A DNA stretch of 25,244 nucleotides from a virus: positions 1-25,244 of the IMG/VR virus record IMGVR_UViG_3300023109_000126. The stretch is one strand, 5' to 3'. The position numbers were made by a program, and so were the translations under genes. The notes under the pieces are model-generated. The model ran no database searches. It was given only the letters and a program-made list of their open reading frames with translations, and was not told the DNA's origin. Of this stretch, positions 1-18,500 are shown one piece after another; the first letter of the stretch is position 1, and the number at the start of each line of letters is the position of its first letter.

Positions 1-488
1 CTCCGCAAGTGTTTATTACACATAGTGCTAACTATAGCGCACTAACACCTACACATAGTAATTATCCTTTTCAAATTTATAGCAATTCGTCTGTAGATGC
101 ATTTACAATTACAGGAGAATTTACAGTAGAGAATTCAAAAGAAGCTGAATATTGGATCGCCGCAGTACATTTTTTAAGAAGTATAACTAAAATGGCGTAT
201 GGTGACAGTGCAAATAAAGGATCTCCTCCACCAGTAACAAAGCTTAATGGCTACGGTGATTATGTTTTTAATAATGTACCAGTAGTTATTCAAAATTTTA
301 ACGTTACGTTGCCCTCTGATGTAGACTATATACCTGCTAGTGTTGGATTTAACGGATCTTATGCTCCAACTAAGTCTGAAATTTCGGTTTCGATGGTTCC
401 TGCATACAGTAGAGACAAGGTTAATAAGTTTAGTCTTGATAAATTCGTTAACGGCGGATATATTTTAGGCGGAGACGGGTACATTTAA
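1..488 (+). CDS. 48: Baseplate tail-tube cap protein, gp48-like (5' partial)
   Basis: The reading frame is open to the left edge of the window (first full codon at position 3), so this is the C-terminal part of a longer protein. A GTG at 9 is only an internal valine codon. About 161 residues are visible. They are rich in beta strands and include a helix-like stretch with EAEYWIAAVHFLRSITK, followed by FNNVPVVIQNFNVTLPSDVDY and a closing IS-VSMVP-YSRDKVNKFSL. A strand ending in an alternating hydrophobic 'EISVSM' followed by a tyrosine/arginine tail resembles the end of T4 gp48, which sits on top of the baseplate and starts tail-tube assembly. gp54 is a related alternative, since both are tube-like proteins. 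The next gene (gp53-like) starts on the last base of this stop codon. Placement in the tube-cap family is fairly safe; the choice of gp48 over gp54 is inference. Confidence 0.6.
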   Translation, partial: PQVFITHSANYSALTPTHSNYPFQIYSNSSVDAFTITGEFTVENSKEAEYWIAAVHFLRSITKMAYGDSANKGSPPPVTKLNGYGDYVFNNVPVVIQNFNVTLPSDVDYIPASVGFNGSYAPTKSEISVSMVPAYSRDKVNKFSLDKFVNGGYILGGDGYI

Positions 489-790
489 TGGCTAATTATG
501 ACGATAAAAGTCCTTATAAAGACACTAGGCAAGTTAACGGACAGTATTTAGGAATTTTAAATATTAGACCTGTGCCTGCAGAAAACGATGATATTTTATA
601 TGAAATTGAATCGCAGTATACTTACAGACCAGACTTATTAGCTTACGACTTGTACGGTGATAGGCGTTATTGGTGGGTTTTTGCTCAAAGAAATATGAAT
701 GTTTTAAAAGATCCTGTATATGATTTTAGACCTGGCACAAAAATATACTTGCCTAAAGAACGAAATATTACATCAAAGTTAGGAGGCTAA
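488..790 (+). CDS. 53: Baseplate wedge protein, gp53-like
   Basis: This is a 100-residue protein. Its core block at residues 46-69 (YRPDLLAYDLYGDRRYWWVF and onward) is the typical signature of small phage baseplate wedge proteins of the gp53 type, where a helix with 'LYG(D/N)..YWW(V/L)' follows an arginine-proline pair. The end, residues 79-89 (DFRPGTKIYLP), looks like the last turn and strand of a LysM-type fold. T4 gp53 is about twice as long (196 aa), so this is a short form. In T4, gp53 joins neighbouring wedges around the hub. The ATG overlaps the upstream stop as TAATG, with a purine-rich GGAG at 471-474, so its translation is probably coupled to the upstream gene. Assignment to the gp53/LysM-like group is confident; exact equivalence to T4 gp53 is inferred. 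Confidence 0.78.
   Translation: MANYDDKSPYKDTRQVNGQYLGILNIRPVPAENDDILYEIESQYTYRPDLLAYDLYGDRRYWWVFAQRNMNVLKDPVYDFRPGTKIYLPKERNITSKLGG
781..786 (+). promoter_or_regulatory. Shine-Dalgarno site fixing a GTG start
   Basis: AGGAGG lies at 781-786, inside the last codons of the gp53-like gene. It is 8 bases before GTG 795 and is the strongest ribosome binding site seen in the window. The first in-frame ATG is 35 codons further on and has no comparable site, so GTG is the start of the hub gene. Confidence 0.85.
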
Positions 791-794
791 CACA

Positions 795-3557
795 GTGCCT
801 TTTTTACCACAAAATTTAGAAGCTAGACTGTCTCAAGCAGGACAAGATCTTGGAGAGGCGTCTGATCAGTTAGGTAATGCACTTAGTCAGCCACTACCAA
901 TGTCTCCAAATATCTCTTTAGATCCTTTAGGAAGAGCTCTTGCAGGCACAGCAGACTCTGCACGAGGTGCAGTTACCGCGATTGATTCGTTTATTTCTAA
1001 TCCAGGTGCTGCAATAGGAAATGCAATTGGTGGTGCACTAAATGATGCAATTGGTGGTGCGTTAGGCGGCTTGTTTGGCGGCCTCGGCGGCGGACCTATC
1101 GGTTTACAACCTAACTCTTTACGTAAATTTGCAAGCTATAATAATATTTTTACTTTTGGTGCTGTAAGTAAAACAACTTATAACTCTCCAAACTCTACAT
1201 ATAGGTCCAAAGGCCCAGATGTAACAATAATAAAATCTGGCGGAACAGGAAATGACCAAGTAAAAACTTCTTTAGAACGTGCTGCTGGAATTACCGGCGA
1301 ATACTTTATTGAAGATGTTGATATTATATGTCTTGTAACGCCCAACAGTAAAACACAACAGACAAATGCTACTACAATTAGTTTTAATGTTACTGAACCG
1401 TATAGTATGGGTTTATTTTTACAATCTCTACATATTGCTGCTGCAAAGGCAGGGTATACAAATTATTTAGAAGCAGTGTATTTGTTACAAGTAGAATTTA
1501 TCGGTTATGACGATAGTGGGCGTTCTGTTAAAGATGCTAGATCTACTAGAATGTTTCCATTAAAATTATCAAACGTTGAGTTTGATGTTACCGAAGCTGG
1601 TAGTTCTTATTTTGTTGAAGCTATACCTTATCATGAAATTGCAATGTCAGACGAAGTACAAATGACTCCAGTAACAGTAGATATACAAGGTGCAACGATA
1701 GCAGAACTTTTACAAACTGGTCCACAGAGCCTTTCTACTATTTTAAATACAAGAGAACAAGAACAAGTTCAAGCAGGTAACAAACCAGTTGCAGACGAAT
1801 ATGTTATTATGTTTCCTAAAAGCATGTCTAGCGCATCAAGTTCTCCGCTAGGTGCTGCAACACAAGCATTACAAGGGGCAACTACTGCGTCTGCTGCTGA
1901 ACCCGGAACTGAAGGCGCTGGAGGCGAAGAAGACAGAAATCAAAAACTTTATGATCAGTTAACTGGCGTCGAAGGCGGCGAAGTTCCTGCAGATTTTGAT
2001 GCAGAAATTAGCAAAGTATTAGGCATTGTTGTAACACGTAGCCAAGTAGGCGAGTCTATTAGAGAGTCTGCAGAAAGTGAAGAAAACATAAACGCCATAG
2101 GTCAAAGTAAAATTGTCAAGAGTTACTTAGACCAAGGAACTCAGTACTTCGGCCGTCCAGGATTTGTTGAAGATAAAGAAAATGCTCCGGGAATTTTTCA
2201 ACGCGGAAATATACAAATAAGTGACGAAGGTAGACGAATTAATTTTGCTCAAGGAACTAGAGTACAAAACATAATAGAAGAGGTTATATTACTTTCAGAA
2301 TATGCAAGAAATTTTGTAACTGAGCAACCAGATGCTAATGGTATGAAAACTTGGTTTAGAATTGAAAGTGATGTATTTTTAATTCCAGGAAACTCAAATG
2401 TTGCTGCAACCGGTGAAGGCGCAAAAGTTTATGTATACAAAGTTATGCCTTTTCAAAATCACGTAGCTAGATTTACATCTCCTACATCTGCCCCGCCAGG
2501 ATACCTAAATTTAAGACGCCAAGCTGTTAAAGAATATGACTACTTATATACTGGTGAGAATGATGATATTATAGATTTTAATATTAATATTAACGCTGCA
2601 TTTTTTACAGCATTAAATGGTGATTTCGGACAATTAAATGCTAATCAAATTACACTTGGCGCAAACGGATTAGTTATAAATCCAGAATCTCCTGTACACG
2701 GTGCATCACCAGGCAACAGTACTAATTCATCAACATCAGGTATATCTGCTACTAGACCTGTTCCTACTACAAACACAGGCGAAGCTGGGTCAGGACCGCA
2801 AAATCATCCTGAGAATGCAGTTGCAAGAACATTTAATGACGCAATTGTAAATAGTGAAACTGATTTAGTAGGTATTGACTTTGAAATTTGGGGAGATCCG
2901 TATTATATTACAGATAGCGGAATGGGAAATTACAGTGCATCTCCTACAGGTAGTATTAATTTAAATAGTGACGGGTCGATGGACTATCAAAGCGGAGAAG
3001 TAGATATTCTAATAAATTTTAGAACTCCTGTAGATATACGAGATCCTGGGTTTATGAAATTTCCAGCAGGCGGCACTAAAGCTGTTGGTGCATTCAGTGG
3101 TCTGTATCAAGTAATAGAAGTTACTAATTCTTGGAGTGAGAATAGATTTACACAAAAATTAAAAACAATTAGAAGAAGAAATCAACCAGAAGATACAGGT
3201 ATATCGCCTATTGATATTTCTATAGAAAGTATCATTGAAAAGGGACTTGATGCTATTATATCGCCGTTAATATCTTCGCCTGTTGCTGCATTTCAGGGCG
3301 CTATTGACGATATACAAGGTCAAATTGATCAATTAGGTGCAACATTAACACAAGGTATAGGCGGAGCAGTAGCAAATGGTGTTGCAGCATTAGATTCTGC
3401 TGCAACTGATGTTGTTGGAAATATATCGTCGTCGGTTAGTGGCGCTGCGCCTACAATACCATCAGATAATCGTACTGATGCACAAGTTAATGCCGATTTC
3501 GAAGAACAACATAATGCGTATTTGGCAAGAGCAAATCGAGCAACAGGAAGAACTTAA
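795..3557 (+). CDS. Putative baseplate hub protein (gp27-like, enlarged)
   Basis: This 920-residue protein starts at GTG. Visible parts in order are: a polar N-terminus; a Gly/Ala-rich hydrophobic segment (about 67-103) with tandem AIGGAL units; a beta-rich region (about 110-300) with the block EPYSMGLFLQSLHIAAAKAG and then FIGYDDSG; a low-complexity Ser/Ala/Gly/Glu linker (about 343-380); a second folded region (about 400-625) with YDYLYTGENDDIIDFNI; a Ser/Thr/Pro linker (about 632-672); a beta-rich C-terminal region (about 680-795) ending in SGLYQVIEV and KLKTIRRRN; and a final amphipathic Ala/Gly/Ser-rich tail. The gene lies directly upstream of gp5. In T4 the partner of gp5 is the tube-like hub protein gp27 (391 aa). 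The 'YTG-N..I..F.I' block and tube-like N-terminal region fit large hub proteins of marine T4-like phages as I remember them. I can claim only a hub-type structural protein with moderate certainty. One cysteine is present. Confidence 0.6.
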   Translation: MPFLPQNLEARLSQAGQDLGEASDQLGNALSQPLPMSPNISLDPLGRALAGTADSARGAVTAIDSFISNPGAAIGNAIGGALNDAIGGALGGLFGGLGGGPIGLQPNSLRKFASYNNIFTFGAVSKTTYNSPNSTYRSKGPDVTIIKSGGTGNDQVKTSLERAAGITGEYFIEDVDIICLVTPNSKTQQTNATTISFNVTEPYSMGLFLQSLHIAAAKAGYTNYLEAVYLLQVEFIGYDDSGRSVKDARSTRMFPLKLSNVEFDVTEAGSSYFVEAIPYHEIAMSDEVQMTPVTVDIQGATIAELLQTGPQSLSTILNTREQEQVQAGNKPVADEYVIMFPKSMSSASSSPLGAATQALQGATTASAAEPGTEGAGGEEDRNQKLYDQLTGVEGGEVPADFDAEISKVLGIVVTRSQVGESIRESAESEENINAIGQSKIVKSYLDQGTQYFGRPGFVEDKENAPGIFQRGNIQISDEGRRINFAQGTRVQNIIEEVILLSEYARNFVTEQPDANGMKTWFRIESDVFLIPGNSNVAATGEGAKVYVYKVMPFQNHVARFTSPTSAPPGYLNLRRQAVKEYDYLYTGENDDIIDFNININAAFFTALNGDFGQLNANQITLGANGLVINPESPVHGASPGNSTNSSTSGISATRPVPTTNTGEAGSGPQNHPENAVARTFNDAIVNSETDLVGIDFEIWGDPYYITDSGMGNYSASPTGSINLNSDGSMDYQSGEVDILINFRTPVDIRDPGFMKFPAGGTKAVGAFSGLYQVIEVTNSWSENRFTQKLKTIRRRNQPEDTGISPIDISIESIIEKGLDAIISPLISSPVAAFQGAIDDIQGQIDQLGATLTQGIGGAVANGVAALDSAATDVVGNISSSVSGAAPTIPSDNRTDAQVNADFEEQHNAYLARANRATGRT
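1021..1060 (+). repeat. 16-bp tandem direct repeat in the hub gene (AIGGAL units)
   Basis: The 16-base string ATGCAATTGGTGGTGC occurs at 1021-1036 and again at 1045-1060. The 24-base period equals eight codons. It encodes two adjacent AIGGAL-type octapeptides within the Gly/Ala-rich segment, followed by a degenerate third unit (GGLFGGLG). The local run of GGC/GGT glycine codons is unusual for this AT-rich sequence. It is a recent in-frame duplication or a conserved amphipathic motif. Confidence 0.85.
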
Positions 3558-3575: not shown

Positions 3576-5561
3576 ATGGATAAAGTTAATAAAAATCAAG
3601 TAGAAAGAACAAGTCAAAGCGGCACTAAGGAGCAGTTTCCTTCGCAGCCTAAAATTGCTATTGTTAGAAATCATCTAGATACTACATATATGGGAAACCT
3701 TGAAGTAGAACTTTTAACATCATCAAATTCAGGACAGTCTACAAATGCACCAGGTCAGATTATTGTAGCAAAATATCTTAGCCCGTTTTACGGAATAACA
3801 TCACTGCAAGGAACAACTGATAATGAAAGCCACATAAGTAGTCAACGCAGCTACGGCTGGTGGGGAGTTCCTCCAGATGTTGGTGCAAAGGTTCTTGTAA
3901 TTTTTGCAGAAGGCGGCACAGCATTTTGGATTGGTTGTATTCCTGAAGACCACACAAATATTATGACTCCTGATCCGTTTGTTTCCAGTACATACAATGA
4001 TTCTGATCAGTCTAGAAAATTGCCTGTTGTAGAATACAATAAACGAACCGAAGACGGTACTGGCAGAAATAGTACACAATTTGTAAAACCAGCAAATCAA
4101 GATGCTATTGATGTGTTAACTACACAAGGTTTAATTGATGACGAAATAAGGGGTGTAACAAGTACTAGTTCTAGAAGAGAAGTTCCTAGCGCAGTTACTG
4201 GATTTAGTAGTCCAGGACCACAAGACAGGCGCCCAGGTGCACCTAGAGTTAATTACGGAGAAAATTTTGCACAAACTCCTATGCCTCAAAATAGATTAGG
4301 CGGCAGTAGTTTAGTGTTTGATGACGGTGATGCTACATTGTTGCGTAAAACTCCAGCAAAAGACGGACCTCCTGTGTATGCAAATGCCGAAGCTGGAGAA
4401 ACAGACGGCGATCCTACACTTCCTCATAATGAACTAGTACGTTTAAGAACAAGAACGGGTCATCAAATTTTACTTCATAATACTGAAGATTTAATTTATA
4501 TTGCTAATGCACGAGGCACTACTTGGATTGAATTAACTGCAAACGGAAAAATTGACATTTATGCACAAGACAGTATTAGTGTACATAGTGAAGCAGACAT
4601 TAATATGAAGGCCGGTGCTAATGTTAATATTGAAGCAGGAGCAGATATTAATTTAAAAGCAGCCGGCGATACAAACGTAACTGCTCCGGGCAGTGTAAAC
4701 TTAGATACTCCTGATACAAATATGAAAAATTTAGATGTAAACGGCAATGCAATAATAAGTGCAAATACAAACACAGGTTCTCTGTCAGCAGGAAGTGTTA
4801 ATGGAACTAGTGCAGGTTCATCTTGGACAGATCGCCCAGGAAGTGATGATCAAATACTTGGATCACATAGTTCTGCATCGCCTACAGCTCCGACAGCGGC
4901 TATACCAAGCGCAAGAGTTCCCTTGCACGAACCTTGGAGTGGGCACGAAAATTTGTTCAACACTACTGCTGTAACACCTGATACATTTAGACAAAATACA
5001 ACACGCGAAGCTGGCGCTCAACCAAATACTGCTCCTCCAGAAGCAGCAGAAGCACCTGCTGCTCCTCCTACAGACGGAGTAGTATCTACTCCTAATGCTT
5101 CGATACCAGGTGTTCCTAAAAATGTAGGTAATGCACTTGGCGGAGTACAAGAAAGCGTAGGACAGTTTAGTGTCGGAAACTTAGTAAATTCTGTAGCAGA
5201 ATCTGCCTCTCAAATTACACATAGCGTAGGACAATCGATTGTCGGTGCAATTGACAGTATAGCAAGTCCAGGCGCATTAAGCAATATTACAAATAGTATT
5301 ACTGGATCTGCAATATCTCAAACAATAGGAGCAGTTGGTAGTTTACTTAATTTACGAACTACGTTGGCAAAAGGTCAAACTCCGAGACCTACAACTATTA
5401 CAGACTCTGCTGATCCGTTTGAAGGAATTGATCCTGTTATTGATGTAAAAATACTTAACGATGTTGCTGATGGAAAATACTCAGACGGATCTCAAATTAC
5501 ATTAGGAAATGGACAAACGTATACAGTTAATAGAGACGGCGACTATTACGAGTTAACATAA
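3576..5561 (+). CDS. 5: Baseplate central spike protein gp5 (no lysozyme domain)
   Basis: This 661-residue protein has AGGA at 3567-3570, 5 bases before its ATG. Residues about 24-140 form an OB-fold of the gp5/VgrG type, with beta strands around KIAIVRNHLD, SYGWWGVPPDVGAKVLVIF and GTAFWIGCIP. Residues about 140-285 are a polar Pro/Ser/Arg-rich linker. Residues 285-320 (NELVRLRTRTGHQILLHNTE and onward) lead into a strict eight-residue repeat at about 324-395, the hallmark of the trimeric needle beta-helix. T4 gp5 carries a lysozyme domain between the OB-fold and the needle; no lysozyme-like motif is visible here. After the needle come RVPLHEPWSGHE (447-458), a Pro/Ala stretch, an amphipathic Gly/Ala/Ser/Val-rich region (about 505-595) and a small ending of about 50 residues. 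The protein would form the cell-puncturing tip with the hub encoded upstream. Confidence 0.88.
   Translation: MDKVNKNQVERTSQSGTKEQFPSQPKIAIVRNHLDTTYMGNLEVELLTSSNSGQSTNAPGQIIVAKYLSPFYGITSLQGTTDNESHISSQRSYGWWGVPPDVGAKVLVIFAEGGTAFWIGCIPEDHTNIMTPDPFVSSTYNDSDQSRKLPVVEYNKRTEDGTGRNSTQFVKPANQDAIDVLTTQGLIDDEIRGVTSTSSRREVPSAVTGFSSPGPQDRRPGAPRVNYGENFAQTPMPQNRLGGSSLVFDDGDATLLRKTPAKDGPPVYANAEAGETDGDPTLPHNELVRLRTRTGHQILLHNTEDLIYIANARGTTWIELTANGKIDIYAQDSISVHSEADINMKAGANVNIEAGADINLKAAGDTNVTAPGSVNLDTPDTNMKNLDVNGNAIISANTNTGSLSAGSVNGTSAGSSWTDRPGSDDQILGSHSSASPTAPTAAIPSARVPLHEPWSGHENLFNTTAVTPDTFRQNTTREAGAQPNTAPPEAAEAPAAPPTDGVVSTPNASIPGVPKNVGNALGGVQESVGQFSVGNLVNSVAESASQITHSVGQSIVGAIDSIASPGALSNITNSITGSAISQTIGAVGSLLNLRTTLAKGQTPRPTTITDSADPFEGIDPVIDVKILNDVADGKYSDGSQITLGNGQTYTVNRDGDYYELT
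4545..4712 (+). repeat. Octapeptide repeats coding for the gp5 needle beta-helix
   Basis: Seven consecutive in-frame octads cover residues 324-379, with more degenerate units to about 395. Examples are ADINMKAG (340-347) and GSVNLDTP (372-379). Each has alternating small/hydrophobic residues and a conserved asparagine or aspartate near the middle. This is the pattern of the T4 gp5 C-terminal triple-stranded beta-helix and of VgrG needles. The repeat is at protein level; the DNA copies have diverged. Confidence 0.85.
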
Positions 5562-5574
5562 GGGTAAATATGAT

Positions 5575-6021
5575 ATGAGCACACAAGAAAAGAGCATTTA
5601 CAAACAAATAGTAGTTCCTGGTAATCAGTCCCAGTCTCCTATTCCAGAATCGAGAGCATACAGGGGAATTAGCACAGTTGACCCTGATGCAACCGAATGG
5701 GTACTATATGATATTGCACTTATTAAACAAGATATTATTAACCACTTTCATATTCGTCAAGGTGAAAAACTAAGTGATCCTGAGTTTGGAACTATTATTT
5801 GGGATGTATTATTTGAGCCGTTAACTGATCAACTTCGTGACGCTATTACTAAAAATGTTTCAAGACTTATTAATTATGATCCTCGAGTAAATGTTGATAA
5901 TATTATAATATCTACATACGAAAGCGGAATACAAATTGAATGTACACTAAGTTATCTACCCTATAATATTTCTGAAAATATGAAACTAAAATTTGATGAA
6001 AATGCTGGATTTTTATCATAA
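5575..6021 (+). CDS. 25: Baseplate wedge protein gp25
   Basis: This 148-residue protein is close in length to T4 gp25 (132 aa) and belongs to the gp25/gpW-like baseplate family. The core is intact: residues 40-60 (WVLYDIALIKQDIINHFHI), then RQGEKLSDPEFGTIIWDVLF and EPL (61-83), then a helix ending in YDPRV (101-105) and two beta strands to the end. In contractile tails this protein sits at the inner ring, contacts gp6 and gp53 and links the wedge to the first sheath ring. AGGG at 5561-5564 gives a normal ribosome binding site. An earlier ATG at 5570 is followed almost at once by TGA, so 5575 is the start. In T4, gene 25 lies in a different cluster from genes 5 and 6; here it sits between them. 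Confidence 0.93.
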   Translation: MSTQEKSIYKQIVVPGNQSQSPIPESRAYRGISTVDPDATEWVLYDIALIKQDIINHFHIRQGEKLSDPEFGTIIWDVLFEPLTDQLRDAITKNVSRLINYDPRVNVDNIIISTYESGIQIECTLSYLPYNISENMKLKFDENAGFLS

Positions 6022-6047
6022 AATAAACTACGCACATAATATAATAA

Positions 6048-6055
6048 AATAAATA
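6048..6055 (+). promoter_or_regulatory. T4-type late promoter candidate upstream of gp6
   Basis: AATAAATA at 6048-6055 matches the T4 late promoter octamer TATAAATA at 7 of 8 positions. It lies in a 55-base non-coding gap, the longest in the window. In T4 the octamer occupies about -13 to -6, so transcription would start near 6061, just before the ribosome binding site (GAGG, 6065-6068) of gp6. A second octamer before the gene at 25228 has exactly the same distance (21 bases) to its start codon, which raises confidence. Confidence 0.6.
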
Positions 6056-6076
6056 CATTGTAACGAGGAAAACAGC

Positions 6077-9000
6077 ATGTCATCTACAGATAGACAAAAT
6101 AGATTATTACTAGCAGAAGATTGGAAACGTGTCTATCAAAGTTTCCGTAATGCAGACTTTAAGTCTTACGATTTTGACAATCTAAGACGCACAATGGTCT
6201 CTTACTTGCGTGAAAACTATCCAGAAGATTTTAATGATTATATTGAGTCAAGTGAATATCTTGCGCTAATTGATATGATTGCATTTTTAGGTCAAAATAT
6301 TGCATTCCGTATTGATCTAAATGCTAGAGAAAATTTCCTAGAACTAGCAGAACGCCGTGAGAGTGTACTACGTTTAGCAAGATTACTTTCTTATAATCCT
6401 AAGCGTAACCAAGCAGCAAACGGGCTTTTAAAAATTGAAGCAGTTAGTACAACTGAAGAACTAGTTGATTCAAATGGAATTAACCTTCAGAATCAAACAA
6501 TTCAATGGAACGATTCTTCAAATCCTGATTGGTATGAACAATTTATTAGAGTAATGAATTCGTCGTTACCTGTTAATGGTACTTTTGGAAGACCTGTAAA
6601 ATCAGAAGAAATTTCCGGAGTTCCAACAGAACAATACCGTATGAATTCAACTAACAACGAAATTCCTGTGTATAGTTTCTCAAAAACAGTTGACGGCAAA
6701 AGTGTTGCATTTGAAGTTGTTTCGACAGATATAAATGATAATGAAATATACGAAGAGCCACCGTTCCCTGGTAATAACTTTGCATTCCTTTACAGAGACG
6801 ATGGCAGAGGCATTGCGAGTTCGAATACTGGATTCTTTACACACTTTAGACAAGGAAAAATTGACACTGGACAGTTTAATGTAACAAATCCTAGCACAAG
6901 TCAAGTTGTAGCAATTGATGCAAGAAACATTAATCAGTCAGATGTTTGGTTATATAACTTAGATAGTATTGGAAATGAGCAAGAACTTTGGACAAAGGTA
7001 GATGCAGTTGAAGGTAACAATGTAATTTATAATAGTTTAAATAAAAGCATTAGAAATATTTATAGTATATTAACACGCATTGAAGACCGAATTAGTTTAA
7101 TCTTTTCAGATGGTACATTTGGTAATTTACCGCAAGGAAATTTCCGTGTATACTACCGTTCTAGTAAAAATCAAAGACTTATAATTACACCAGACAGTTT
7201 ACGTGGTATTGCTGTACGTATTCCATATGTATCAAAAGCAGGTAAAGCTGAAACTATAACAATTACTCTTGAATTAAAATATACTGTTGACAATGCAACA
7301 ATATCAGAAACTAATGCAAGCATTAAGAAAAATGCTCCTAGTACATATTATACACAAAATAGAATGATAACTGGAGAAGATTATCAACTAGGCCCACTTG
7401 CTGTGAGTCAAGAAATAGTTAAAGCAAAAAGTGTAAACAGAGTGTCAAGTGGTATTAGTAGATATTTTGACTTAGTTGATTCTACTGGAAAATATAGTAC
7501 TACGAATCTTTTTGGTACAGACGGCGCAGTTTATAAAGATTTTTTAACATTAAAAACAGGCTTCTCGTTTGAAACTCTTACAGACATTGAAGGACAGATA
7601 CTTAACACTATTGAACCTATATTGTCTAGCATTAAAGTTCGAAATTATTATTACAATACATTTCCTAAATTATTAGTTGAAGATTTAGGAGCAGTTTGGA
7701 CACAAACTACTGAAGATACTAATAATTTTACTGGTAGAATGTCTAACGCTGCGGGCGTTCTTGTTAAAATAGGATCATTTACCGGATCTAACATGAAATT
7801 TGTTAAACCAAATAGTTTATTAAAGTATATTCCACCAGAAGGATATCACTTCTTAAACGGCAAACTTGAACTAGGCGAACCAGATTATAGAGGCGGATCA
7901 ACATATAAATGGGTAAAGGTTATAACAGTTATAGGAGACGGTACTGAAATTCAAGAAAGCGATGCTGGCCCAATTACCATTAACGATAGCATTCCTACAG
8001 GATCAAAATTAATTGAAATTAGAACCCCACTTCCGACAACTCTTACACCAGATGTCCAAGCACAGATTACTGCTCAAATATTTTCTTACAAAACATTCGG
8101 ATTGAGATATTCAAGAACCGACGGAGAATGGCGCCTAATTACAGAAAATAACTTAGCAGCAAATAGTGAGTTTAGTACAGGTAAAACTGGTAGCACAGCA
8201 GGCCAACAGTTAGATGCAAGTTGGATTTTAAAATTTAATACTGACGGAGAAAACTACACCATTACATATCGCGGCCTACGTTACATATTTGAAAGTGACA
8301 AGGACATAAGATTCTATTACGATAGTAGTGATAAAATTTATAACAATCGTACTGGAAGAGTTGTAAAAGATAAAATAAATGTATTAAACATTAATAATAA
8401 ACCCACAGAATCAGTTCCTTTTAATACTGACTATCTTTGGGAAATTGTTGAAGAATACAGAGATGCCGAAGGGTATATTGATAGTAAAAAAATACAAGTA
8501 AGTTTCTTTGACGAAGACGACGACGGTGTTGTAGATAATCCTGAAATATTTGATGATATAGTAGACGAAGTTAATATTAGTTCTGATAATATAACTGAAA
8601 AACTAGTATTTTTAAAGAAAAAAGTATCTTCAGATGGTGTTGAAGACTTTTTATACGAAAACAAAAATAATATTTTTAGAGATCCTAATGCACTTATACT
8701 ACTTTCAAAGTCTAATAGAGGCTCGTTAAGCAAATATGATGACGGTGATATTTTATATTATTTAGAAGAAGATATTTTTGAAATATATAACGAAACAACT
8801 ACAACGTTAACTATTACTACTGATTATAAAGCATTTATTGGTAGAGACGGATTAAAGTTTCAGTATGTTCATTCCGCTGATCAAGAAAGTAGAATTGACC
8901 CTAGTGCAAGTAATATTATCGATACATATCTGTTAACTAGAGGTTATGATACATTGTACAGACAGTGGTTAGATGGCGATTTAGATAGTAAACCATTGCC

Positions 9001-9553
9001 TCCTAGCAGTGACGATTTGTATATTAGCTACTCTGCTAACTTAAATAAAATTAAATCATTAAGTGACGAAATTATCTATCATCCAGTTAAGTACAAAGTA
9101 CTTTTCGGATCAAAGGCGAAAGAAGACTTGCAAGCAACATTTAAAATTGTAAAAAATCCTAAATTAGTGTTAAACGATAACGAAGTAAAATCAAAAGTTA
9201 TTAGTGCAATAAATAAATTCTTTTCACTTGATAATTGGGACTTCGGAGATAGGTTCTATTTTTCAGAATTATCTACATATGTAATGAGTCAATTGTCACC
9301 AAACCTTGTTACGTTTGTTATTGTGCCAGTACAAGAAGATCAAACATATGGATCTTTACAAGAAATTAAATCAGAGTCAGATGAAATTTTTATTAGTAGT
9401 GCAACAGTGTCGGATGTAGAAGTAATAGATGCTATTACTGCTGGTAGATTAAAGTCACAAGGTGCAGTTGTTACGAGTGTTACTGCTGCTAATACAGGCA
9501 TCCAAAGCGGTGCATCGACTTCAACGTCAACTAATGGAGGCCTTAGTTACTAA
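6077..9553 (+). CDS. 6: Baseplate wedge protein gp6 (enlarged)
   Basis: This 1,158-residue protein has an N-terminal block (about 33-111) that is nearly the textbook gp6 sequence of T4-like phages: FDNLRRTMVSYLRENYPEDF, then YIESSEYLALIDMIAFLGQN, then LNARENFLELAERRESVLRL and LLSYNPKRN. Residues 337-360 (DRISLIFSDGTFGNLPQGNF and onward) are the baseplate_J-type core, and residues about 420-490 include YYTQNRMITGEDY and VNRVSSGISRYFDL. T4 gp6 is 660 aa. The extra length lies mainly in the region of about 560-1000, which includes an Asp-rich loop at 812-823 that fits an EF-hand calcium site. The C-terminus has about 40 residues of low-complexity Ser/Thr/Gly. gp6 dimers join six wedges into the ring around the hub and control sheath contraction. 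No cysteine was found. GAGG at 6065-6068 precedes the ATG, and a late promoter candidate lies just upstream. Confidence 0.95.
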   Translation: MSSTDRQNRLLLAEDWKRVYQSFRNADFKSYDFDNLRRTMVSYLRENYPEDFNDYIESSEYLALIDMIAFLGQNIAFRIDLNARENFLELAERRESVLRLARLLSYNPKRNQAANGLLKIEAVSTTEELVDSNGINLQNQTIQWNDSSNPDWYEQFIRVMNSSLPVNGTFGRPVKSEEISGVPTEQYRMNSTNNEIPVYSFSKTVDGKSVAFEVVSTDINDNEIYEEPPFPGNNFAFLYRDDGRGIASSNTGFFTHFRQGKIDTGQFNVTNPSTSQVVAIDARNINQSDVWLYNLDSIGNEQELWTKVDAVEGNNVIYNSLNKSIRNIYSILTRIEDRISLIFSDGTFGNLPQGNFRVYYRSSKNQRLIITPDSLRGIAVRIPYVSKAGKAETITITLELKYTVDNATISETNASIKKNAPSTYYTQNRMITGEDYQLGPLAVSQEIVKAKSVNRVSSGISRYFDLVDSTGKYSTTNLFGTDGAVYKDFLTLKTGFSFETLTDIEGQILNTIEPILSSIKVRNYYYNTFPKLLVEDLGAVWTQTTEDTNNFTGRMSNAAGVLVKIGSFTGSNMKFVKPNSLLKYIPPEGYHFLNGKLELGEPDYRGGSTYKWVKVITVIGDGTEIQESDAGPITINDSIPTGSKLIEIRTPLPTTLTPDVQAQITAQIFSYKTFGLRYSRTDGEWRLITENNLAANSEFSTGKTGSTAGQQLDASWILKFNTDGENYTITYRGLRYIFESDKDIRFYYDSSDKIYNNRTGRVVKDKINVLNINNKPTESVPFNTDYLWEIVEEYRDAEGYIDSKKIQVSFFDEDDDGVVDNPEIFDDIVDEVNISSDNITEKLVFLKKKVSSDGVEDFLYENKNNIFRDPNALILLSKSNRGSLSKYDDGDILYYLEEDIFEIYNETTTTLTITTDYKAFIGRDGLKFQYVHSADQESRIDPSASNIIDTYLLTRGYDTLYRQWLDGDLDSKPLPPSSDDLYISYSANLNKIKSLSDEIIYHPVKYKVLFGSKAKEDLQATFKIVKNPKLVLNDNEVKSKVISAINKFFSLDNWDFGDRFYFSELSTYVMSQLSPNLVTFVIVPVQEDQTYGSLQEIKSESDEIFISSATVSDVEVIDAITAGRLKSQGAVVTSVTAANTGIQSGASTSTSTNGGLSY
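8510..8545 (+). other. EF-hand-type calcium-binding loop in gp6
   Basis: Residues 812-823 of gp6 read DEDDDGVVDNPE. This has acidic residues at loop positions 1, 3, 5 and 9, glycine at 6, a hydrophobic residue at 8 and glutamate at 12, which is the full canonical EF-hand/dockerin-type loop. It lies in the region that T4 gp6 lacks. Calcium binding is inferred from the pattern alone. Confidence 0.6.
9536..9540 (+). promoter_or_regulatory. Shine-Dalgarno site of the giant gp7-like gene
   Basis: GGAGG lies in the last codons of gp6, 12 bases before ATG 9553. The start codon shares a base with the gp6 stop (TAATG), so ribosomes finishing gp6 can restart directly on the giant gene. Confidence 0.7.
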
Positions 9554-12500
9554 TGGCATATAATAACGATCAAAATCCTACGAATCTTCCTATTGGAGAT
9601 AATGACAGACGCAGAAGTTCAGATCATTTACCTAGATATTTTAGAACTAGAGTTAATAATAAATTCCTTTCTAGCACAATTGATCAACTAATTCAACCTG
9701 GCTCTGCAGAAAAACTTAATGGCTATTATGGTCAAAAAGAAGCCAAAGGATTTCAAACAACTGATTTTTATATTGGCGATGTTTCTAAACAAAGAGAAGA
9801 CTATCAATTTGAGCCTGCTTCGGTTGTAAAAGATTCGTTAGGGAATATAGATTTTTATGGCGATTATAACGATTATATTAATCAATTAAATTCGTTAGGT
9901 GGCAGCGTGTCTGACCATAGCTTATTGAATAGACAAGAATACTATGCTTGGAGCCCTAATATCGATTTTGATAAGTTTACTAACTTTAGAGAATACTATT
10001 GGTTACCTACTGGTCCGCGACCTATACAAATTGCAGGCGAAAAAGACAATGTAGTAAAAACTATTAAAGTTACCGCAGTTAATAATGGTGAGAACTACGG
10101 ATACGTATTCACACCGGATGGACTTACACAAAATCCTGTTTTAACCTTGTTTAGAGGCATTACATACAAATTTGAAATTGACACCCCTGGTAATCCTTTA
10201 TCCTTTAGATCTAGGAAATCAACAGCGCCAATTTATAGACCTAATTTTTTGTATGTTAAGGGTGAAATAATTAATTTTAATGGCGGAATCTATATTTGTA
10301 ACTCGGAACATGTATCTGGCCTAGAGTTAAATTTAGATTTATGGGATTTAGATACAGCCTTTAATTTAACAGGAGTAGTAAGTAGTAACGGAGTAGAAAA
10401 AGGGACAATTGAAGTTACACTAGATCAAAGTACACCTGATTTAATTTATTATATGTCTGATAACGATTTATATGCAAGTAATGTTATAAATGTTCTTGAC
10501 ATTAACGAAGCAACCTCTATTAATGTAGAAGAAGAAATATTAGGAACAAAGACTTACAAAACAGAAACAGGTATTGAACTTTCTAATGGAATGAAAATAG
10601 AATTTATCGGAAATGTTACTCCTGAAAAATATTCAACAGGTTTTTGGTATGTAGAAGGAGTTGGAGACAGCATAGTTCTTAAATCAGAAGAAGATCTTAA
10701 TGTTCCTAGTTCGTATACCTCAGATTTAATTGTAGAATTTGATAACGAAGGATTTGACGAATTTCCGTATTCAGAAGCAATTGGATATCCTGCTAACAAA
10801 GATTATATTACAATTAATAGAGCAAGTCAAGATGGAAATTTGTGGTCAAAATATAATCGTTGGTTTCATAGAAGTGTAATTGAAAAAAGTGCAGAAATTA
10901 ATAATCAACCCCTCGAACTAGATCAAAGTGCAAGAGCAACACGACCTATTATTGAATTTGAACCTAACTTAAAATTATTTAATTACGGAACAGAAGTTAA
11001 AAAGAGTATCGATTTAGTAGATAATTTTACTAAAGATGTTTTTAGTATTATTGAAGGAACTGAAGGCTATAATATCGATGATGTAGATCTATCTAATGGT
11101 ATGAGAGTTTTGTTTACTGCTGACAGTGATCCTCTAGTCTATGGTAAGATTTTTGAAGTTGAATTTATTAATTTTCAAAATCGTAGACAAATTACATTTA
11201 AGGAAACTTCTGATAGCTTACCATTGTTAAATGAAGTTGTACTCTGTAAACAGGGTACAGATTTTAAAGGTAAAATGCTTTGGTTTAACGGTTCTGAGTG
11301 GAAATTAACACAACAAAAGTTAAATTTAAATCAGTCACCGTTATTTGATATTTTCAATGAATCCGGAACAAGTTATTCAGACGAAAATGAATTTGAATCT
11401 ACTACATTTAAAGGCACTGAATTATTTTCTTATAAAGTAGGCCAAGGGTTAAACGATAGCGAATTAGGATTTCCGTTAACATATAGAAATATTGAAAATG
11501 TTGGTGATATTGTATTTGAATATGATTTATCTTTTGATACATTAACTTATGCTAATGTAGGAGACTTACCTATAACAGCTTCGGTTAAAGAAGGTTATAT
11601 TAGAAAATATAATTCAAGAGAAGGTTTTGAAATTTTAAACGGATGGACCAAGGCAACTACTGATAGTACACAGTCTGTTATTAGACAGTATGTTAACGAT
11701 AATACTAGAACATTCTTTACAGTAGATACTTATGAAAGAAGTGGTTTGTTAGAAGACCTGTGGCTAAGAGTGTTTGTAGATAATTCTTTAAAATTTGAGG
11801 ATGTCGATTATACAACTTCTATAGATCCTAATGAAAATTTAATAATTAAATTTAATAAAGATCTTGAATTAGGACAACGAGTTATTATTAAAACACGATC
11901 TGTTGCTGAAAAAACAGAAAACGGAAAATACGAAATTGCTAGTAACTTAGAAAGAAATCCATTAAATGTTGATATAACTGAATTTACTCTAGGAGAAGTA
12001 AACGACCATGTTGGAACAATTGTCGAGGAAGTAAATAATTTTAACGGCATTTATCCTGGGAATAGCAATCTAAGAGATTTAAAAAGTCTATCAACTTACG
12101 GAAAAAGAATAGTAAAACATAGTTCACCGTTAAACTTGCCGCTATATCATATTGTTGATAAAGATGCAAATGTTGTTAAAGCAGTAAAATATGCAAGACG
12201 TGAATACGGTAAATTTAAAAGGTCCTTCATTCAACACGCAACAGATTTAGGATTTAGTGGTCCTATAAAGGAACATGTTGATCTAATTTTAACTGAAATG
12301 AATAAGGATAAGACTACGTCTATGCCTTACTATTTCTCAGACATGGTTCCGTATACTGGATCGTCTAGGTTTGTTTCTGAAATTACAGATGCAGAAAATA
12401 ACTTCTTTGCATTGTCAAAGATATTTAATGTTAATAGTCCTAGTGATACTGCTGTACAGGTTTACATAAACGGACAGCAATTAATATATGGTAAAGATTA

Positions 12501-15500
12501 TACGTTTAACGATCAAGGATTTGTTATTGTTACTGCTGATAAAAGTCAAGGCGATTTAATTGAAATTTACGAATACGAATCGACAAATGGTAGTTTTGTT
12601 CCACCGACACCGACTAAATTAGGAATATATCCTAAATTTATTCCTGAGACTTTTATTGATAATACGTATTTAGAACCTACAACAGTAATACAAGGTCATG
12701 ATGGAAGTATTACTGTAGGATATAACGACTTTAGAGATGACCTTTTATTAGAATTAGAAAAACGAATTTTTAATAATCTTAAAGTTGAATATAATACTGA
12801 TCTATTTGATATTAATGATTTTGTTCCCGGCCACAGTAGAGATACTGGACTAACTTTAACGCAAATTAATAAGCCTATGATTAGCGACTTTGTCCAATGG
12901 TTACAATTAGTCGATTCAGATTATACAATACATGAGTTTTTTGAAAGAGAAAATACTTTTACATTTAACCATACCGGGATGACAGACATTGGCGGACATC
13001 CAGTAAATGGATGGTGGAGAGCTGTTTACAAATACGCATATGATACTGATCGTCCTCATACACACCCTTGGGAAATGCAAGGATTTAGTATTAAACCAGA
13101 CTGGTGGGACGAGCAGTACGGTAGTGCTCCGTACACTAGAAACAACTTTTTAATGTGGGAAGATATTGAAGCCGGTACTATTCGAACACCATATACCCCA
13201 GGTGTAACTAACAAAAAAGTTGCTAGAAAAAATTTAACATCGCACATTCCGGTTGACGATGACGGAAACTTAGTTAGTCCTGTATTAAGCAGTTTTGTTG
13301 AAAGTTTCAATTCAACTACATTAAATGATAATTTTAAATTTGGTGATTACAGCCCGGTTGAAACCGCTTGGCGTCGAAGCTCTGAATATCCTTTTGCATT
13401 ACTTGTTTCGTTAATTGTAACTCAGCCGGCTAAGGTATTTTCCACTGCGTTTGATAGAATTAGACAAGTTAGAGGACTTACTGGTGATATCATTTATAAT
13501 AGGTCTAACACTCAAATTCAGCTTTCAGACATAGAATTTCCTAACACCTCTACTCAAACTACTAGAACGTATACATCGGGATTAATAGATTATATTAGCA
13601 ATTATCTAGGGTCAACAGTAGAGATGCCGTATGACGAGTATAAACAAAGATTAACAACTATTAATAATCAAATTGGTTTTAAATTAGGAGGATTTACTAC
13701 AAAGGATAAATTTAAACTTATTTTAGATAGTCGCACACCGACTAATAAAGGTAACATTTTTATTCCGGAAGAAAACTATCAAATTTTCCTAAATACAAGT
13801 ACTCCAGTTAAAACTATTACATACAGCGGAGTTATAGTTGAAAAACAGTCATATGGATTTGTAGTAAGAGGCTACGATCAAGAATTACCATATTTTAACT
13901 ATTATCCAGCAGTTGAATTGCAAAGTGATCGGCTAGTGAGAATTGGCGGCATTAGTGCTAGCTTTGTAGAATGGAACGAAAATAAAACATATGTTTTAGG
14001 AACTATAATAGACTATCAAAATTCTTATTATAGAGCTACGGAAACCCACACAAGTAGTAATACATTTGACGATACAAAATTTGCTAAAATACCTAAAATT
14101 CCAGAAGAAGGCGGCCGCGAAGCATACTTTAGAAAAGCGTTTACTAATAATGTTGAACAACTTCCATACGGAAGTGTGTTTAAAACAATTCAAGAAGTAG
14201 TTGACTTTATTTTAGGGTATAATCGTTATCTAGAAACTGAAGGGTTTGTGTTTGACTATTATGCCCAAAACTCTAATTTTGTATCTAACTGGGAAACTAG
14301 TGCAAAGGAATTTATGTTTTGGACAACTCAAAACTGGGGAGAAGGGGCTGTTATAACATTGAGTCCCGGAGCGTTCCAACTTAAATTTAATTCTAACTAT
14401 GCAGTTGTTGACGATATTTACGATACGTTTTACGGATATAGCTTACTTAAAGCTGATGGGAAAAAACTTTTACCACAAAATGTTAGTTTAACTAGAGAAA
14501 ATCCTCAAGAATTTGTTGTTAGACCAAAATCAACAGAAGACGGAATTTATTCAGTACGTCTTTCGTTAGTGCAAAAAGAGCACGCTATTGTTATTGATAA
14601 TAAGACAGTTTTTGGAGATATTATCTTTGATCAAGAACCTGGATACAGACAAGAAAGAATTAAAGTATTAGGTTATAAGTCTAGCGACTGGGACGGTTCT
14701 ATTAATGTTCCGGGATTTGTTTACGACAATGTAGTTATTACAGAATGGAAATCTTGGAAAGATTATAATATAGGCGATGTAGTAAAATACAAAGAGTTTT
14801 ATTATATTGCTAAAAATAAAATTCCAGGAACAGAAGTATTTGTTGCAAGTCAGTGGTCAATACTTAGCGAAAAGCCCGAATCGCAGTTAATGCCAAACTT
14901 TGAATACAAAACAAATCAGTTTGCTGATTTTTATGATCTAGATACTGATAATTTTGATTTAGAACAGCAAAAATTTGCACAGCATTTAATTGGATATCAA
15001 AACAGAGACTACCTTGCTAACATTATTAATGATGATGTAAGTCAGTACAAATTCTATCAAGGAATGATTCAAGACAAAGGCACACAAAATGCATTAACTA
15101 AATTGTTTGATGTACTAGGAAGTGCAGACAAAGATAGTTTAGAATTCTATGAAGAATGGGCTATTAAAGTAGGACAATATGGCGCAGCAGACGGGTTCGA
15201 CGAAGTTGAATATATTCTAGACGAAGATAAGTTTAGACTACAACCGCAAAGTGTAGAATTAGTAAATTCAGTTACTGGTGATGAAACCGACTTAGTTTAT
15301 AGAATTAGACCTTTTGAAACTTACTTAACACCTGAAAATTACGACCACGCACCGTTTCCTACAACATATGTCGATGACACATATGTTAAGACTGCTGGAT
15401 ATGTAAATTCTGATGATGTTGATTTTATAATTGACACATACGATTCTATTGCTAATATAAATTACGATGATATTAGATACAAACAATTTGTTTGGGTAGG

Positions 15501-18500
15501 AAACGTAAAACAATCTTGGAATGTTTATGTTTTCTTAAAGGATGATATATTCTTAGAAAGCGTTATTAGTGTAGGCAATCAAACAGAGTTATCGTTTAGC
15601 ACTATTCCTAACGATTTAAGTGTTGGCGAAATTATCGGTATTGAATACACTGATGAAGAAGATAACAAAGTCGCAGAATTTGCAAAAATAACAAAAATTA
15701 TTAATAATAAAATTACAGTAGAAGGTTCAACTTTAACAGAAAGTAACACTGTAACTAATCCTATTGTAACAAAATTTGTAAGTGTACGGTCTTCTAATCT
15801 TAACGAAGCAAGCGAATTAATACAAAAATATAAGCAAGCTATTACTCGTGTATGGATCGACGACGATGGTACTGGAAAATGGAAAGTATTTAATAATACT
15901 TTAGGATTTAATGTACAACAAGCTATTGAAAATTCTGAATCAGGAGACAAACACAATTATGCCCAAGTTATTGCAGCAAACGATAACAACACATTATTAG
16001 TAGTTAGTTCGCCTGACAATGTCGACGGTAAAGTCTTTACTTATGTTAGAGCAGGCAACTCGGGGTCGTATCAGCTTAATCAAGTAATAGATCCAGATCA
16101 AGGTCTTGCTAAGTCATATCCTTCTTTTACAGGAAATACAGTATACAACACTGGCGACATTGTTGTTTTTAATAAAATGTATTATGAATCGTCTAGTTCG
16201 TTTACGTCTACTGTACAAGAAATTGAGCCTGGAGTTTTCGAAACAATTGATCAAACTTGGTCTAATTATGTATCTAACTTTACTGAAATTAATAAACCAG
16301 ATGATGTGCAACGTTTTGGTGCATCTATAGCAGTATCGCCGAACGGTAGATATCTAGTAGTTGGTTCTCCTAATGCAACACAGGTTAATTCTACATATCA
16401 AGGGGATTATAACGAAGATACAAATTATAATGATCAAGATATTGTTCGTTATAAAGACAATATTTGGCAAGCAAATAAAGATGTATTAGGCTCAATTGAA
16501 AATATTAAGTTTGGAAGCTTTGAATCTGTTTCTGAAATACTTATTGATCTTGCACAGCTAAATGAAGATGATGATATTAAGCCATCAATACTAACAGGCG
16601 ATTATCCGTTTTCGACAGACTTTTTAGAACAAGAATTTATTACTAATCACTTGCTGATAAAAGCACCGCTTGATATGTATCAAGGTTCAAAGATAACTGA
16701 CACAATTCACTTGCGTTGGAATGACCTAACTTATGCAAACCAGTTTGCTGATGACTTATTAAGTAGAGAACCGTTTAATGGCAACATACCAGAAATTACC
16801 GGTAACTTTTTAACTAATAGTCATATAATTACTGAAAAAATTGACAGTATTCTTTATGTAGAAAATTCAAACACAACGCCGTTAGTAGGTCAAATTATTG
16901 AAACTCTAACAGGGTTCGGCGAAGTGTGTTATACACAAAACGTAGGAGCCAAACTAGTAATTTACGTTAAGGAACAAAATGGTACATTTGGTACAGTAGG
17001 ATCTTTAACAACTAGCATCGGCGAATTTGTTGGCGAATATGAAACAACTGGTCCGATAGATACAGCAGCCGACTCAGAAGATTCTTGGGGCGGGTATTGG
17101 AGAATAGAAGCACCTTCGAATTATACAGTTCCCGAAATTAACTCAGACATTGGTCGCGGACTTGTATATTTTGATCTTAGTCCTACAGGTAGTTCTAGCA
17201 CAGATAAATTTTATTACAATGTTTTAGATTATTCGTCAAGTGTAGAACGCAGTTTAGATGGAGAAAATTCTCAAGTTATAACACTAAGTTATTCAGGTAA
17301 TCCAGGGCCTTTAGATGTCTCGGGCAATTTTGAATCGTCTTTATATGTGTTACGAGCTCCTAAAGAGTTAAGTGATTCGATAACAGCAGAAGGTGTAATT
17401 CAAGGTGATGCATCGAATCCCAAATTAAATGTATTTTATAATATATTACCTCCGTTTTCAACAAACGACCTAGGTAGCAGATCGTTAGAAGGGATAGGAC
17501 TTTCTTCAACAGTTGTTAATAAGAAATCAACAGTATACGATGTTTGGGATGGATATATTGATTTTAGAATTACTAAAAACTTAGGTGGCATACCAATTGA
17601 ACCTAAAGTAGGAATAACTGTTCGAGATGTAACAAATTTAGGAACTGCCGAAATTGTATTCTATCAAAAATTTGATACGTCTAACGGTAGGATATATGTT
17701 AAAAACGTCAGCGGCACTTGGGCATTAGGTAATAACTTTGGTGAAAATAGAGAAATTGAATTCTTATCTGATGGCACTGGAGATCCAGTTTACGATCCAA
17801 TTTCAGGGTCACGTGTTTTTGGTCAAATAGAACAACGCTGTTATCCATTTGATGCTCAAGGCATTGGTAAATTTATTGTTTTTGATACTGGTGTTGATAT
17901 CGAAATACAAAATACGGATAATGATGTTGCGACTAGAGAAGATACAATTGTTGACGGCGAATATTGGTTCTATAGAGAAGAAGAAGTTAGCGGCATTCCT
18001 AGACTACCAAACCTACCAACTATTGACAATAATGACTGGAATATTAGATATAATATTCCTGCTACTCCAAATGCCGGAGTCAATTCGGACTGGATTGACA
18101 ACTCGGAGTATTCAGAGCTTGTAAACGAAGGAATGTATACTGTTTATGAAAGAAGGGGCATAGGACAATTTAGTAAGATTAATTCTTATATTGCTCCTGA
18201 TCGACAAGGCAGTGCTTTCTTAGCAAGCGAATTAAATCTAACAGCAAATGGTGATTTTAATAGGTTATTTGTTAAATCTACAAACGGAGGCCAAAACAAC
18301 AACGGCAAACTATATATAATTAATAACGGCGAAATAAATGAAACGACATATGGCTGGGAATCTGCTAGAGACAAAAACTACCGAGGCTCGTTTGATATTG
18401 ATACAATTTATTTTACTGATGAAAAGGTTTATTATAATAATAACTTATACAGTGCAATCACTACTACAGGCCCTGGTCAATTTGATGTGTCTAACTGGAC

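Follow-up and report, generated by a model that had tools for sequence, protein, structure and literature searches.

The gp5-like protein encoded at positions 3,576–5,561 of the analyzed DNA is best explained as the gp5/VgrG-type central spike of a jumbo myovirus, which would form a trimer and pierce the host envelope mechanically rather than serve as a tail lysozyme; we put the probability of this reading at about 0.7. The analyzed DNA, hereafter the window, is 25,244 bases long and coincides with the whole IMG/VR record, i.e., it is a genome fragment. In the order of its domains the protein comprises an OB fold, a conserved middle segment, a beta-helix needle, a short post-needle motif and a predicted C-terminal helical domain. 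It belongs to a known spike class, of which it is a variant without a recognizable lysozyme and with a clade-specific tip.

Genomic context of the spike gene

The source of the window is a jumbo myovirus with RaK2 and PA5oct among its relatives. Its genes are, in order, a partial structural gene, a gp53-like gene, a gene for a 920-aa protein in the hub position, gp5, gp25, gp6 and a gene for a giant protein of 5,216 aa, and the order gp53, hub-position gene, gp5, gp25, gp6 is common to the window, RaK2, PA5oct and Vibrio phage 2.275. The gp53-like baseplate wedge protein (488–790, plus strand) matched Pfam Phage_gp53 (E = 2.7e-4) and phrog_7145 (E = 9.5e-27). The 920-aa structural protein that follows (795–3,557, plus strand) matched phrog_11190, “virion structural protein” (E = 3.4e-30), and its place in the RaK2-like gene order suggests a gp27-type hub role. 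Gly/Ala-rich, low-charge stretches near the start of this protein resemble in style the tip domain of gp5.

The spike gene itself (plus strand) encodes 661 aa, exactly the reading frame given in a preliminary description of this DNA, and was identified by phrog_13211 (E = 4.7e-48, residues 21–213) together with the conserved gene order. The gp25-like wedge gene (5,575–6,021, plus strand; GPW_gp25, E = 4.8e-8) starts 13 bases past gp5, with no lysozyme gene between the two. Lysozyme activity is ascribed to T4 gp25 in a passage that cites a 1986 paper (PMC5259590); as a lysozyme candidate, the window gp25 was dropped, its only Pfam match being the wedge family GPW_gp25. Further downstream lie a gp6-like baseplate wedge gene (6,077–9,553, plus strand; phrog_10646, E = 1.5e-302) and the giant open reading frame (9,553–25,203), which matched phrog_10938, “virion structural protein”, and showed CBM_5_12 (E = 3.1e-11), FG-GAP and weak TIG matches, with no hydrolase among these domain matches. 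A 270-kb relative has an open reading frame of 4,694 aa downstream of gp6. Searching 50,697 phage records by tblastn revealed gp5 relatives in 64, all at less than 60% identity and, among the matches listed, at no more than 62% query coverage.

Architecture of the spike body

The OB-fold domain (residues 24–140; 3,645–3,995, plus strand) was recognized from AlphaFold-predicted strands and from structural comparison, in which OB proteins were the top matches. VIA-align matches listed for the model were mostly OB-fold proteins, with a best Z of 7.8 over residues ~24–124, which lies in the “middling” range of the tool; Phage_base_V matched 17 of 33 gp5 family members, with the window gp5 itself unmatched. 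The needle (residues 324–395; 4,545–4,760, plus strand) was supported by Pfam DUF2345 at residues 325–405 (E = 1.1e-4, under the family cut-off), a family matched by 31 of 33 gp5 proteins, and by Foldseek, whose best matches to the spike were those of AlgoCIS, Anabaena and Streptomyces contractile injection systems (CIS), with the phiKZ spike and T4 gp5 also retrieved. The full-length AlphaFold model was of modest confidence (mean pLDDT 61.9, pTM 0.43). These results agree with the preliminary placement of an OB fold at about residues 24–140 and of a needle at about 324–395, and an OB fold, a beta-helix needle and a baseplate gene setting together make the window protein a gp5/VgrG-type spike.

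The intervening residues 140–285 (3,993–4,430, plus strand) had been described as a Pro/Ser/Arg-rich linker without a lysozyme. The missing lysozyme was borne out by profile searches, as described below, but the word “linker” misdescribes this segment, whose conservation equals or exceeds that of the OB fold: across 35 relatives, 17 of its 145 columns were invariant, whereas the OB domain had 5 invariant columns out of 113 and the needle 9 out of 54. Its enrichment in Pro, Ser and Arg was mild (24.7% versus 19.0% in the rest), and no enzyme domain was detected in it. Because the distance from OB fold to needle is 183–231 residues in 49 of 60 clusters of related spikes (those measurable by script), there is no lysozyme-sized insert between the two.

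Search for a muralytic domain in the window

Apart from a family label, no muralytic family was found in the window gp5 using Pfam, NCBIfam and PHROGs. The label, “baseplate hub subunit and tail lysozyme”, comes from phrog_13211, which matched only residues 21–213, upstream of the lysozyme position in RaK2-type relatives; phrog_27932, which bears the same name, matched residues 260–377. The preliminary description had proposed a profile check of residues 140–285 for muralytic families, and a profile of residues 138–292 built from 28 sequences gave a best E of 1.1 against the PDB and a probability of 0.2 against the GH24 domains of RaK2-type gp5 proteins, while a GH24 profile used as positive control retrieved T4 lysozyme at E = 8e-22. 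Residues 441–661 had no enzyme match in Pfam, PHROG or NCBIfam, and the C-terminal alignment (A4) again reached a probability of 0.2 against the GH24 profile. The window gp5 carries a recognizable lysozyme neither between OB fold and needle, as in T4, nor at the C-terminus past the needle, as in RaK2-type spikes. Pfam, PHROGs and NCBIfam likewise recognized no muralytic domain in the other window proteins, in line with the earlier statement that none of them shows a lysozyme-like motif.

A divergent, unrecognizable lysozyme hidden in residues 140–285 was also considered, given the conservation of this segment and a single match to the pattern E-x8-D-x5-T at residues 124–139. This pattern was not kept in the alignment of relatives and occurred 7 times in the 8,364 residues of the window proteins, the profile tests were negative with a working control, and the same middle segment is present in spikes that have a separate C-terminal enzyme. 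On the profile tests and the non-conservation of the pattern we rejected this candidate as extremely improbable.

A conserved post-needle motif and a clade-specific predicted helical tip

The preliminary description had examined the enzyme position of T4 and left residues 396–661 undescribed. This region contains the motif R-x-P-x-HEPW-x2-HE at residues 447–458 (4,914–4,949, plus strand), in which R447, P449, H451, E452, P453, W454, H457 and E458 were each at least 90% conserved in alignment A3. Of the 60 environmental gp5 clusters, 59 have it, although part of this sample was chosen by the motif itself. No phage paper on an HEPW motif was found in a literature search limited to one collection.

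Residues 511–661 (5,106–5,558, plus strand) form a clade-specific domain for which AlphaFold predicted helices and a few strands, with pLDDT mostly 73–88 per block in the full model and a mean of 75 when modelled alone. No PDB fold was matched at E ≤ 0.001, which is not proof of a new fold. Charge was low in residues 511–600 (6.7%), and transmembrane helices, considered for the C-terminal domain, were rejected on hydropathy (KD19 ≤ 1.09). The domain weakly matched tape-measure-type PHROGs, at E = 0.005–0.0074 for the window (phrog_1535, E = 0.0074) and at best E = 6.7e-4 for phrog_58 in one of eight members. The weak tape-measure matches and low charge suggest that this tip may contact the envelope or the tape measure protein, and it is most cautiously read as a putative non-catalytic contact domain.

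Tips and enzymes in named relatives

Scanning the gp5 proteins of ten named phages with Pfam located Phage_lysozyme at the far C-terminus in RaK2, Vibrio 2.275, GAP32 and 121Q (residues ~760–880), preceded in RaK2, Vibrio 2.275 and GAP32 by M23 at a score under the M23 family cut-off; in 121Q, the lysozyme alone was over threshold. XaC1 gp5 aligned with these RaK2-type spikes but showed no lysozyme match. An SLT_3 domain was found at residues 594–690 of XacN1 gp5, and an M23 peptidase gene adjoins gp5 in this phage. That gene (locus L009, 6,778–7,617) carries an HEPW motif in its own tail, and the adjacent gp5 is without it, so that the motif may be a docking peptide. Atu_ph07 gp5 (locus L006, 3,947–6,544) ends in Trypsin_2 (residues 700–849, E = 6e-17), and a stretch ahead of it looks lysozyme-like, which is only a reading. 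Phosso, PA5oct and SCTP-2 gp5 had no enzyme match by Pfam; the Phosso protein (locus L007, 3,986–7,120), which aligns by eye with that of Atu_ph07, contains a very long glycine-rich linker. Between gp5 and gp25, seven of the phages examined have an additional gene, of 162 aa, with a lysozyme annotation.

The C-terminal lysozymes of RaK2 and CBB are already known from sections of their descriptions, the former as a “very unusual domain composition” (PMC3622015) and the latter for the CBB spike (PMC5259590). In PA5oct, the annotation of which we covered at 1–50,000, 54,739–79,635 and 78,000–176,000 of 286,783, a PAAR protein with mass spectrometry evidence, gp239 (locus L222, 37,101–38,123), is encoded about 100 kb from the lysozyme-less gp5. 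Its record note reads “putative baseplate hub sub and tail lysozyme, muramoyl-pentapeptidase”, and Pfam recognized the PAAR part only. As judged from these sequence matches, the enzyme position in the spike family is the C-terminus past the needle or other genes, with none seen internally.

Diversity of spike tips in environmental relatives

We collected 70 loci with the gp5 sequence, HEPWSGHE being one of six search peptides, and at least 75 further loci by using the motif as a DNA pattern; the latter half is motif-selected and in part repeats earlier contigs. The resulting 145 records and the window yielded 116 complete gp5 proteins of at least 400 aa, which fell into 60 clusters at 90% identity. 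One cluster (L069) was left out of the tip classes for its broken frame. In this locus (5,424–8,146) the gp5 frame breaks near the motif and the missing end is read in a different frame, which may stem from a sequencing error.

Among the 59 classed clusters, 24 had a bare tip that ends shortly past the motif with gp25 as the next gene, and 16 had a bare tip followed by a separate Gly/Ala-rich gene of 336–531 aa before gp25. GH19 followed the motif in 8 clusters, a class assigned by sequence pattern; Pfam supported GH19 in all six pattern-bearing proteins scanned, four of them over the family cut-off. The predicted helical domain of the window, which follows the motif and is about 150 residues long, occurred in 6 clusters, and the others had a transglycosylase-like domain (L141, one cluster), another C-terminal part (L066, one), a small gene (one) or a next gene that was not seen (two). 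Separate Gly/Ala-rich genes are found, for example, at L038 (3,746–4,822), L041 (11,498–12,592) and L044 (9,552–11,078), and the 364-aa product of the L041 gene gave a tape-measure family match (E = 2.9e-6). The helical domain was compared with these genes of L038, L041, L044 and others, and the comparison did not establish homology (hhalign probability 7%). Small PAAR genes follow GH19-bearing spikes at L062 (11,441–11,731) and L064 (6,954–7,265), two of the 12 proteins scanned.

In a tree of residues 22–370 (68 rows including nine named phages, for which the labels “M23+GH24” and “lyz+trypsin” were assigned within this analysis), built by a quick method with SH-aLRT support only, the helical clade was one fully supported group nested among bare and GH19 spikes, and the distribution of GH19 needed at least two changes.

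Muralytic genes elsewhere in relatives

The preliminary description had called for a search of the remaining genome for muralytic domains. The record ends with the window, and this search was run on relatives, with nine muralytic Pfam families searched singly against 10 to 25 records each, mostly fragments. Phage_lysozyme was found in 0 of 10 records, M23, SLT, Amidase_2 and M15_4 in 0 of 24 each, and NlpC/P60, M15_3 and Hydrolase_2 in 0 of 25 each; GH19 was found in 1 of 24, in the gp5 of L062, which was the sole match at E ≤ 0.001 across the nine families. PAAR was detected in 3 of 30 records (PA5oct, SCTP-2 and one of the 26 environmental relatives) and had no match in the window.

This single-family screen was leaky, as it missed a 208-aa GH19 protein in the 270-kb relative that was later found by tblastn with a GH19 tip domain (E = 8e-20; Pfam on the isolated protein, E = 1.8e-4). 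A holin-like gene lies near it (GTA_holin_3TM, E = 3.3e-8), and the protein is probably an endolysin; the region (L095, 3,886–6,358) resembles a lysis cassette. A homologue is present in a 364-kb relative, whose spike also ends shortly past the motif. These findings indicate that relatives with a bare spike retain an enzyme for lysis; single-family Pfam searches and tblastn identified no virion enzyme in them.

Discussion

We propose that contraction of the tail would push the spike, as a trimer, across the outer membrane, by analogy with T4, as outlined in part of PMC3004832, and with phiCD508, which a section of PMC11948020 presents as a contractile phage without a recognizable enzyme. Any cutting of peptidoglycan at entry would then fall to another protein encoded outside the fragment, PAAR-type or other, or would not be needed. 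The most likely role of the helical tip, once the tail has contracted, would be a non-catalytic contact with the tape measure protein or with the envelope. Against this reading, the window is only a fragment, the full-length model is of modest confidence, and a divergent enzyme below profile detection is possible. The preliminary description had offered three ways out, namely doing without the enzyme, using another virion enzyme or infecting a host with a thin wall. This was reasonable, with the PAAR protein of PA5oct as a precedent for another enzyme and the 24 bare clusters and phiCD508 making doing without plausible, but incomplete, as enzymes of this family lie past the needle or in other genes, and nothing found favors a thin-walled host.

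How peptidoglycan would be passed admits two readings. In the first, penetration would be enzymatic, like that of T4, with the enzyme on a virion protein of its own whose gene lies beyond the window; this protein would most likely be carried on the spike tip as a PAAR-linked peptidase or similar. PA5oct supports this, as it combines a lysozyme-less gp5 with a PAAR protein of the virion that bears a muramoyl-pentapeptidase annotation, and the M23 gene adjoining gp5 in XacN1 and the second lysozyme gene by gp5 in RaK2-type phages point the same way. PAAR, however, was unmatched in 25 of 26 environmental relatives and in the window, and the M23, SLT, amidase, M15, NlpC and SleB-type searches gave no matches in 24 or 25 records, mostly fragments and by an imperfect screen, so that we rate this reading as quite possible, at somewhat under even odds. 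Penetration by contraction force alone, with no virion muralytic enzyme, is consistent with the 24 of 59 clusters that have no gene between a bare spike and gp25, with the sole muralytic gene found in the 270-kb relative being a probable endolysin beside a holin-like gene, and with the precedent of phiCD508 as given in that section (PMC11948020). Near neighbors in the tree nevertheless carry GH19 on the spike, so an enzyme is useful to some of these phages, and absence from fragments is little proof; we hold this reading as a tentative one, against which we lean.

Compatible with either is the view that the helical domain resembles a tape measure, makes contact with the envelope and takes over the function of the lysozyme, for instance in that it opens or lines a passage at the inner membrane. 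It sits at the tip, where relatives carry their enzymes, and its low charge, its weak tape-measure matches and the stronger match of the separate L041 gene are in its favor. Yet no segment reaches the usual transmembrane hydropathy, the matches may reflect Gly/Ala-rich composition, and hhalign did not establish homology between the domain and the separate genes; we regard this view as unlikely. Broader still, and in our opinion equally doubtful, is the suggestion that these spikes are a swappable tip platform marked by R-x-P-x-HEPW-x2-HE, past whose needle enzymes (M23+GH24, GH19, SLT or transglycosylase-like, trypsin-like) trade places with domains that are not enzymes, the helical domain of the window being a non-catalytic stand-in for the lysozyme in envelope passage.

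Databases have passed the name “tail lysozyme” to spikes without a recognizable lysozyme, as in PA5oct gp350 and the PHROG label, and the present comparison shows where the enzyme sits when present and how frequently it is absent. Enzyme tips, bare tips and helical tips on related spikes form a natural series, within which an old question, namely whether entry of a contractile phage requires peptidoglycan to be cut, becomes testable in one family.

Compared with known systems, the window spike shares with the phiCD508 needle the lack of a peptidoglycan hydrolase on a contractile phage spike, and differs in that phiCD508, in the same section, has no beta-helix and a Gram-positive host (PMC11948020). 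T4 gp5 has the same OB fold, beta-helix needle and location among baseplate genes but carries its lysozyme between OB fold and needle, where the window protein has none, having a predicted C-terminal helical domain instead. The RaK2-type gp5 proteins (RaK2 gp078, CBB_240, GAP32 and 121Q) resemble the window in OB fold, middle segment, needle, gene order and the absence of a lysozyme from the position of T4, and depart from it in the M23-like and GH24 domains past the needle and in a second lysozyme gene after gp5. PA5oct gp350 (477 aa) is one of the nearest matches from named phages (35% over residues 27–374), is without a lysozyme and bears the related post-needle motif FEPCPEH; unlike the window protein, it ends shortly past the motif, and PA5oct encodes a PAAR/pentapeptidase protein of the virion at another site. 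VgrG and extracellular CIS spikes (AlgoCIS, Streptomyces CIS) gave the best Foldseek matches and are likewise spikes without a lysozyme. In them a gp27-like hub part is fused to the spike, whereas in the window the putative hub part has a separate gene, and extended VgrG proteins carry their cargo at the C-terminal position, as in spikes of the window type.
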